Under the pieces are notes generated by a model that was not told the DNA's origin, did not search any database, and saw only the letters and a list, made by a program, of their open reading frames with translations. A DNA stretch of 64,000 bases, from the NCBI RefSeq assembly GCF_001658025.2, contig NZ_CP014007.2:558001-622000 (forward strand), given 5' to 3'. This document shows, one piece after another, positions 3,458-6,000 of the stretch. The DNA comes from Kosakonia oryzae (GTDB taxonomy: Bacteria > Pseudomonadota > Gammaproteobacteria > Enterobacterales > Enterobacteriaceae). The position numbers were made by a program, and so were the translations under genes. Numbering within the stretch: the stretch's first letter is position 1; every line of letters starts with the position of its first letter.

Positions 3458-3790
3458 ATGTACGAAGCTCTTTTAGTTGTTTTCCTTATTGTGGCACTGG
3501 CGCTTGTTGCCATGATTATGCTGCAGCAAGGTAAAGGCGCTGATATGGGAGCCTCCTTTGGCGCTGGCGCGTCTGGCACGTTGTTCGGTTCAAGTGGTTC
3601 TGGGAACTTCATGACTCGCACGACAGGTGTACTGGCAACCCTGTTTTTTATCATCAGCCTTGTGCTGGGTAACGTTAACAGCAATAAAACCAATAAAGGA
3701 AGCGAGTGGGAAAATCTGAGTGCACCGGCGAAGAGTGAACAAACTCAGCCTGCAGCGCCGGCGCAGCCGACCAGCGATATCCCACACTAA
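3458..3790 (+). CDS. secG: SecG, protein-export translocase subunit
   Basis: SecG is the small accessory subunit of the SecYEG channel. The ATG at 3458 gives 110 residues starting MYEALLVVFLIV, preceded by an AAGGAACAGG ribosome binding site; a TTG two codons upstream is not needed. Two hydrophobic segments (about residues 2-20 and 52-72) flank a Gly/Ser-rich loop (GADMGASFGAGAS), and the hydrophilic tail is typical. The stop is 9 nt before tRNA-Leu, so the tRNA is probably also processed from a secG transcript. Confidence 0.97.
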   Translation: MYEALLVVFLIVALALVAMIMLQQGKGADMGASFGAGASGTLFGSSGSGNFMTRTTGVLATLFFIISLVLGNVNSNKTNKGSEWENLSAPAKSEQTQPAAPAQPTSDIPH

Positions 3791-3799
3791 GTAAGTCGT

Positions 3800-3886
3800 G
3801 CCGAGGTGGTGGAATTGGTAGACACGCTACCTTGAGGTGGTAGTGCCCGATTGGGCTTACGGGTTCAAGTCCCGTCCTCGGTACCA
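3800..3886 (+). tRNA. leuU: tRNA-Leu (anticodon GAG)
   Basis: An 87-nt class II tRNA with an extended variable arm. The acceptor strand GCCGAGG pairs with CCTCGGT (one G-T wobble), the CCA end is encoded, and the T-loop GTTCAAG is present. The anticodon stem CTACC/GGTAG closes the loop TTGAGGT, so the anticodon is GAG. The sequence agrees with E. coli leuU as I recall it. Its last 18 nt recur at 5641-5659. Confidence 0.98.
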
Positions 3887-3895
3887 ATATTCCAG

Positions 3896-3926
3896 AAAAA
3901 AGACATCGTAAGATGTCTTTTTTTTC
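3896..3926 (+). terminator. Intrinsic terminator after secG-leuU
   Basis: Perfect stem AAAAGACATC / GATGTCTTTT with a GTAA loop, followed by a run of T. It ends the secG-leuU transcription unit. Confidence 0.9.
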
Positions 3927-3952
3927 GTCTGTAATCCAGAAAACCAGACAAT

Positions 3953-3980
3953 AAAAAAGACGCCTGATGGCGTCTTTTTT
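3953..3980 (-). terminator. Terminator of argG
   Basis: The inverted repeat AAAAAAGACGCC...GGCGTCTTTTTT lies 13 nt beyond the argG stop on the minus strand. Runs of A and T flank both sides, so it can work in both directions between convergent leuU and argG. Confidence 0.88.
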
Positions 3981-3993
3981 AATCTGTCAGCGA

Positions 3994-5394
<1,401 letters not shown>

Positions 5395-5421
5395 CTATTT
5401 ACCACTCATTTTGAAAATCTC

Positions 5422-5460
5422 AGTGAATGGTTATGCAAAATAAATGAGTTTTCATTTAAT
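5422..5460 (-). promoter_or_regulatory. Two tandem ARG boxes (ArgR operator) upstream of argG
   Basis: Two imperfect 18-bp palindromes, 5422-5439 (TGAAT-GGTT-ATGCA core) and 5443-5460 (TGAGT-TTT-CATTT core), are separated by 3 bp. That 18+3 bp arrangement is the classic ArgR-hexamer operator. Exact half-site boundaries are my reading against the TGAATwwwwATTCA consensus. Confidence 0.72.
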
Positions 5461-5640
5461 CATCTTTTGGCGATGACCGGAAGAGAAGAGTGCAATTTTC
5501 ATCGGAATTATTGGTATGAGACATCTTTTATACAGGCATAATATGCCACAATAAAATGCATAGTCGGCAGTGCGCCGGATGCAGGTAACATACGGTTGAC
5601 AGATAGCTATATTTATCAATATAATGTAGGCCGATTTTAC
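5461..5640. other. AT-rich gap without a recognisable gene
   Basis: This lies in the roughly 375-nt space between argG and metY, where E. coli K-12 carries opgE/yhbX. I see no credible reading frame. A frame on the minus strand through here runs across the metY tRNA and resembles nothing. The segment ends in the tRNA-Leu 3' fragment. Confidence 0.6.
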
Positions 5641-5659
5641 GTCCCGTCTTCGGTACCAA
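5641..5659 (+). repeat. Partial copy of the tRNA-Leu(GAG) 3' end
   Basis: These 19 nt match leuU 3869-3887 at 18 positions (C-to-T at the ninth base), including the T-stem end, the acceptor 3' strand and CCA. No 5' tRNA part is present, so it is not a tRNA gene. Such 3'-end duplications are typical of attachment sites left by integrases that use tRNA genes. Confidence 0.75.
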
Positions 5660-5716
5660 ATCCCAGCATTATTTGCAAATTCACGCTCAACCGAGTAGAA
5701 TTTGCCACGTTTCAGG

Positions 5717-5793
<77 letters not shown>

Positions 5794-5915
5794 CTTTCCC
5801 TAAGTGTTTTTTTTCAAATATACTATGAAGACTTAACGCCTTCGTAGCTGGATTTGAGAAAATACTCACGGAAGGTTCTCCAGGCCGCAGTTGCGGCTAT
5901 AGGGTTCAGTTATTT

Positions 5916-5942
5916 AAAGCCCCGATTTATCGGGGTTTTTTG
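5916..5942 (+). terminator. Terminator in the rimP leader, after metY
   Basis: The hairpin AAGCCCCG-ATTTAT-CGGGGTT followed by T6 lies between metY and rimP. It probably separates tRNA processing from the downstream operon with partial read-through, as described for the E. coli nusA operon leader. Confidence 0.85.
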
Positions 5943-6000
5943 TTATCTGAGTACGAAATAACTGGGCTATACGCCCTTTTTTTATGTCTTGGGGGTGGAC

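Follow-up and report, generated by a model that had tools for sequence, protein, structure and literature searches.

The window, which is the whole 64,000-nucleotide stretch of DNA analyzed here, carries secG, leuU, argG (on the opposite strand), metY, rimP, nusA and infB, in that order. The leuU gene (3800–3886, + strand; ARAGORN and the Rfam tRNA family) encodes tRNA-Leu(GAG) and is intact; it appears to be a target gene whose 3′ end was regenerated. Directly 3′ of leuU, at what would be the left end of an argG islet, a script scan identified a terminator-like hairpin with a T run (3899–3928, + strand), which was not listed by a stricter terminator tool run over 3780–5800. The argG gene (3994–5340, − strand) encodes an argininosuccinate synthase of the NF003779/PRK05370 (E. 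coli) type, based on its open reading frame, NCBIfam and an ArgG tree; its 5′ boundary is an ATG chosen by hand, and the listed reading frame has an upstream GTG start. Divergent argG/metY promoters were reportedly noted by Krin in 2003. Farther along lies metY (5717–5793, + strand; ARAGORN), an initiator tRNA gene and the first gene of metY-rimP-nusA-infB. The rimP leader RNA (Rfam RF01770) is found at 5883–5983 with 95 bits (gathering threshold 47), as expected.

Between argG and metY, a promoter scan predicts a TTGACA-18-TATAAT promoter (12/12) at 5596–5625 on the + strand. A promoter of this form is listed for E. coli metY in the available text of PMC3946193, and the available text of PMC6511841 gives P-1 as the most cold-responsive promoter of the metY-nusA-infB operon. 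From its position and sequence, the promoter in the window is taken to be the equivalent of E. coli P-1. The segment next to metY (5659–5716, + strand), identified as the original leuU-metY spacer by alignment to empty-site spacers, includes a promoter-like P0 at 5673–5701.

The 3′ end of leuU (3869–3886, + strand), which would mark the left end of the islet, recurs at 5641–5658 on the same strand, the putative attR relic at its right end. The original prediction, an orphan leuU 3′ end including CCA that matches at 18 of 19 bases, holds for 5641–5659 when the A after CCA is counted; the tRNA-derived part is 17/18 identical, with a single C to T change. A pattern search with the 18-mer GTCCCGTCYTCGGTACCA at up to three mismatches finds only these two places in the window (shuffles give a mean of 0.04 matches, and two matches in 0/100), and at up to two mismatches they are also the only two in the whole 5.42-Mb genome, with no third copy. 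The relic represents the leuU 3′ end only. The 60 bases on its 5′ side are no more similar to leuU than expected by chance (398/1000 shuffles score as well), which agrees with the predicted lack of a 5′ tRNA portion, and a longer leuU duplicate there was therefore rejected. The ends of the two repeats are 1,772 bp apart with argG between them, close to the anticipated 1.8 kb.

Empty and occupied sites among relatives

Loci were compared around rimP, using the best 80 of at least 520 confirmed loci as the named set. Among these 80, leuU and metY are adjacent in 45, and argG lies between them in 26, all of which (26/26) have the relic within two edits, as anticipated for islands with this repeat at their right end. 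Another six have a different or unresolved insert, one of them (L189) showing the relic at a contig edge, and three could not be scored for the leuU-metY state. The adjacent state includes Buttiauxella, Cedecea, Atlantibacter, Erwinia, Pantoea, Izhakiella, Yersinia, Serratia, Rahnella, Ewingella, Hafnia, Dickeya, Lonsdalea and one Brenneria; two adjacent-state records labelled Enterobacter and Citrobacter group within the Buttiauxella clade. No further repeat copy occurs at up to three edits in the 26 argG loci. The original prediction would be refuted by conservation of the repeat in lineages that never held an island. This is not what was observed: at the same tolerance, the 45 empty loci (up to 16 kb each) gave one match outside leuU, in L245 and on the other strand.

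A species tree of RimP, NusA, part of IF2, RbfA and TruB (FastTree, midpoint root) places the window beside Kosakonia pseudosacchari (support 98). The 32 core rows form one clade (support 95), in which all 28 fully scorable members have argG plus relic. All nine rows of a Buttiauxella/Cedecea/Atlantibacter clade have the empty site. Shimwellia has the islet, and its position relative to the empty Buttiauxella clade is not settled by this midpoint-rooted tree. In Trabulsiella guamensis (L228; G476, L092, L166), no metY was found upstream of rimP.

The order in E. coli K-12 is secG-leuU-yhbX(opgE)-argG-metY. The prediction had put E. coli opgE/yhbX at the place of the relic, which is wrong: the gene lies between leuU and argG and not between argG and metY. 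The K-12 relic has an altered form, GTCCCGTCTCGGTACACCA, and 5373/5426 E. coli genomes have the 95-base relic region with a coverage of at least 80%.

Two types of argG and their positions

Two ArgG types were distinguished: type-2, the window and E. coli type (NF003779), and type-1, the Buttiauxella type (NF001770). The window ArgG belongs to NF003779 (PRK05370) with 914.7 bits, against a curated cut-off of 657, and is only ~30% identical to the ArgG of Buttiauxella noackiae (G140), assigned by NCBIfam to NF001770. An ArgG match was obtained in 191/246 family genomes. Among the matches listed, at least 79 family genomes have the window type at 80–100% identity, and the remaining matches are at ~28–31%, except for a 56% fragment in G334. 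The argG loci surveyed were 60 from these window-type genomes, plus G334.

In an ArgG tree of 67 rows, the 35 leuU-metY rows together with G425 form one 36-row clade (support 98). The nearest rows to this clade, Samsonia, Brenneria and others, have argG at other loci. Type-2 argG is at other loci in 26 of the 61 family rows, which indicates that the gene moves by more than one route. Outside the sampled order-level kin, 8/273 genomes of the class have an ArgG relative (E ≤ 1e-100) at 70–80% identity, and this patchy spread would agree with horizontal movement.

Type-2 argG also appears in other settings. In G425 (L062) the gene is nested in the islet clade, with a selenocysteine tRNA gene ~2.6 kb away; since rimP of this genome is only 85% like that of E. 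coli, a separate transfer is suggested. In G228 (L035) it lies ~1.4 kb from a tRNA-Gly gene, and its congener G450 has type-1; a repeat of the tRNA-Gly end was looked for around the G228 argG and none was found. Yersinia alsatica and Y. frederiksenii (L032, L033) have type-2 argG at another locus.

Buttiauxella noackiae keeps argE/argCBGH with a type-1 argG inside, as does G097; we take these gene names from gene order and sequence. The Buttiauxella genomes G112 and G140 have a single ArgG match each, of type-1. The genome of the window has argE, argC, argB and argH; the gap from argB to argH measures ~120 bases and contains no argG. Together, the type-1 argG in the Buttiauxella cluster and the argCBH without argG in the window genome point to replacement of the resident gene by the incoming one. 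The two genes serve the same step of arginine synthesis, differing in subfamily and locus; the window argG is not at argCBH.

Probable insertion at leuU and alternative readings

Insertion of the argG islet at the leuU 3′ end is strongly supported, and we think it likely that the relic is the scar of an old attachment site. The relic, the empty sites and a foreign argG combine into the signature of integration at a tRNA gene from which the integrase has since gone, and integrase action would best explain the insertion. If the insertion occurred there, the DNA after the relic should equal the DNA that follows leuU in empty genomes. The 58 bases after the window relic do resemble the 45 empty-site spacers (median z 6.6, lowest 1.5), in contrast to the bases after the window leuU (median z −0.3, highest 0.8), and the post-relic sequence scores higher in 45/45 comparisons. 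The terminator-like hairpin 3′ of leuU was found by the script scan in the window, in all 20 of the named islet loci with leuU on the stretch, and in 1/45 empty-site loci.

A same-strand 3′ fragment beside metY could also result from tandem duplication, if leuU was doubled, argG landed between the two genes, and all but the last 18 bases of the second gene were then lost by decay. A possible weak extension of the similarity into the T arm (22/27 by eye) would suit this reading, which is nevertheless improbable. The sequence upstream of the fragment is at chance level against leuU, the aligned loci share a single start point for the fragment, and a second tRNA-Leu(GAG) gene occurs in 0/62 annotated argG loci and in 0/80 of the best rimP loci of at least 520.

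It is considerably less probable that argG plus relic is the ancestral state and that leuU-metY adjacency arose by clean excision between the repeats. Recombination of direct repeats would indeed remove argG and leave a precisely restored empty site, but exact losses would have to be repeated in Buttiauxella, Cedecea, Erwinia, Pantoea, Yersinia, Serratia, Rahnella, Hafnia and Dickeya, and the empty-site genomes that were read (B. noackiae and G097) have the type-1 argG inside argCBGH. We give the least credence to the 18-mer being a metY promoter or leader element, and not a scar, that has grown to resemble leuU. Its very strong conservation between P-1 and P0 is in keeping with such an element, but the match is exactly the leuU 3′ end, CCA included, in the same orientation, for which 17/18 by convergence is not credible, and the sequence after the relic resembles the post-leuU sequence of the 45 empty-site genomes.

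Insertion at leuU, the reading that we prefer, could have proceeded from a state with metY ~60 bases 3′ of leuU. In the ancestor of the core Enterobacteriaceae, an element with an E. coli-type argG would have entered the 3′ end of leuU. The element's own copy of the leuU 3′ end would have made the tRNA gene whole again and moved the original end to its place beside metY, where it became the 18-bp relic, as genome comparison supports. The most likely enzyme is a tyrosine integrase that acted at the T-stem/acceptor region, and the integrase and the rest of the element may later have been lost. The incoming argG presumably replaced the type-1 argG of argCBGH, which is absent from the window genome, in an order of steps that we infer. 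The islet would thereby separate metY-rimP-nusA-infB from secG-leuU, with the hairpin after leuU and P-1 directed towards metY, and the relic would now lie in the first transcribed bases of P-1, just upstream of P0, under purifying selection for a presumed function. Of the integration or excision at leuU originally proposed, an insertion scar stands, given the intact tRNA gene with its fragment, the empty sites and the continuity of the spacer. The associated idea of local gene loss is unsupported, and the event is better described as a gain of argG (plus promoter) between leuU and metY.

Integrases next to leuU, also part of the prediction, were not found in the intervals and loci that were read. 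The window islet has none, and its one long set of open reading frames is argG. Forty-nine loci have leuU, argG and metY on one stretch; in the 20 of their leuU-argG intervals longer than 400 bp, no integrase was seen by eye among open reading frames of at least 100 aa. Four longer leuU-metY inserts, read in part, contained no recognizable integrase. A query with a P4-type integrase had a sole match, in G511 (L170, L171), where a rearrangement joins a P4-type island at tRNA-Leu(CAA) to the argG-metY end of the islet. This integrase beside argG was rejected as a leuU island because it adjoins tRNA-Leu(CAA), a gene that we take to be leuX, on a rearranged chromosome.

Searches of phage and viral contigs found no leuU-type attP. 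The exact-pattern viral matches, two contigs, were tRNA arrays and were rejected as leuU attP, as were the three phage records matched by a 45-base query (a Salmonella chromosome contig filed as phage and two weak partial matches). A search of 85 loci gave no convincing third repeat copy from later inserts; a three-edit match in L166 falls inside a long open reading frame and was discounted.

Some genomes with argG elsewhere carry unrelated genes between leuU and metY. Among 14 loci with such argG-less inserts, two (L151 and L164) have a leuU-like fragment beside metY at three edits, which weakly hints at repeated use of the leuU site; L152, of the same genus as L151, has none within three edits. 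In E. coli, 5127/5375 matching genomes have the K-12 leuU-yhbX stretch at a coverage of 80% or more. Two of the remaining genomes, read at this locus, contain a helix-turn-helix gene and an IS26 block, respectively, and no integrase. The latter, in E. coli Z1323CEC0017 (L273:12378–20815), is an IS26-associated aminoglycoside resistance block that adjoins leuU.

The available text of PMC4383910 describes the Islander class, genomic islands in tRNA genes that have a displaced tDNA fragment and a site at the T-stem or junction. Like these, the islet has an intact tRNA gene, a downstream 3′ fragment in the same orientation, a foreign segment with its gene between the copies, as judged from the ArgG tree against the species tree, and an empty site in relatives. 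Unlike the islands as described there, it has no integrase inside the interval, its 1,772 bp (~1.77 kb) fall below the 2–200 kb range, it is apparently old and clade-wide, and its fragment is conserved instead of decaying. A literature search recovered no paper that links argG with leuU, with or without metY, or one that links argECBGH and argG, and nothing relevant on leuU integration sites; subscription papers were mostly outside its scope, so earlier notice is possible. On this reading, argG of E. coli, Salmonella and Klebsiella would acquire a traceable origin, as a horizontally gained, integrase-less islet that replaced an inherited gene, and the islet would have set the promoter of the NusA/IF2 operon, central to transcription and translation, beside an arginine gene.

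Conservation of the displaced leuU end

The conservation of the scar is the strongest new point of this analysis. Within two edits, the relic is present in 57/61 argG-metY regions (25 exact, 19 with the C to T change and 13 other), and four regions (L034, L055, L065 and L073) have no recognizable relic. The 61 regions comprise 58 distinct sequences over the last 190 bases; 39 of these with the relic in one register were used for an identity profile, and 19 were dropped (15 for shifts, four without relic). Mean pairwise identity is 0.97 in the relic, 0.94 in the following 12 bases and 0.96 in the final 17 bases before metY, compared with 0.89 in the P-1 −10 box, 0.74 in the 15 bases immediately 5′ of the relic and 0.29 far upstream. 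Fourfold-degenerate argG sites of the same group (42 loci with 40 distinct argG segments) have an identity of 0.52, and none of 20000 draws of 18 such sites reached the 0.97 of the relic. An alignment of 46 loci, all with relic, and the conservation profile delimit a near-invariant block (5633–5676, + strand) that begins close to where P-1 transcription is predicted to start, extends to the P0 −35 box and includes the relic.

This constraint shows, at the sequence level, that the relic is under purifying selection. In many genomes leuU varies in the repeat region and the relic stays unchanged, so conversion by leuU does not account for its conservation in those genomes. An attachment fragment, which would be expected to decay, has instead been kept almost unchanged. 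We lean towards the view that an integration scar was taken into service, so that the displaced leuU 3′ end is now required by the control region of metY-rimP-nusA-infB in core enterics. The original prediction had set a functional leader element of metY against an attachment-site relic. Such an element may be present, given the strong constraint, and is compatible with an old att scar.

The constraint probably acts within the promoter/leader of metY-nusA-infB. The available text of PMC6511841 describes the same genes in E. coli with two promoters, P-1 and P0, upstream of metY; in the window the relic lies between promoter-like sites, and the locus adds to that account the origin of the segment and the tRNA fragment. 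We favor a function in the P-1 initial transcribed region, because the near-invariant bases start before the tRNA-derived part; a function upstream of P0 is the alternative. Of three base pairs predicted on 46 rows none changed on both sides, and Rfam has no match at the relic. A tRNA minihelix or conserved RNA structure was rejected given this lack of covariation and an E. coli-type sequence that breaks the pairing (by eye), although the leader of the window, as one sequence, folds better than its shuffles (z −3.45), opposing this result. Without covarying structure, a role that depends on the sequence itself is more probable than one through a conserved RNA fold.

In three of the loci without relic (L055, L065 and L073), a different sequence replaces the argG-metY region upstream of metY, one that, compared by eye, does not resemble what lies upstream of metZWV in the window genome. 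A second leuU allele, with the T arm GTGGGTTCGAGTCCCAT and in some cases a changed acceptor pair, is found sporadically among islet genomes (L052–L055, L057, L060, L063, L065, L066, L069, L070, L073, L074, L085 and L087) and is also present in the empty-site genomes L126, L132, L135 and L141. These leuU alleles look swapped, and the relic, where present, retains the other allele.
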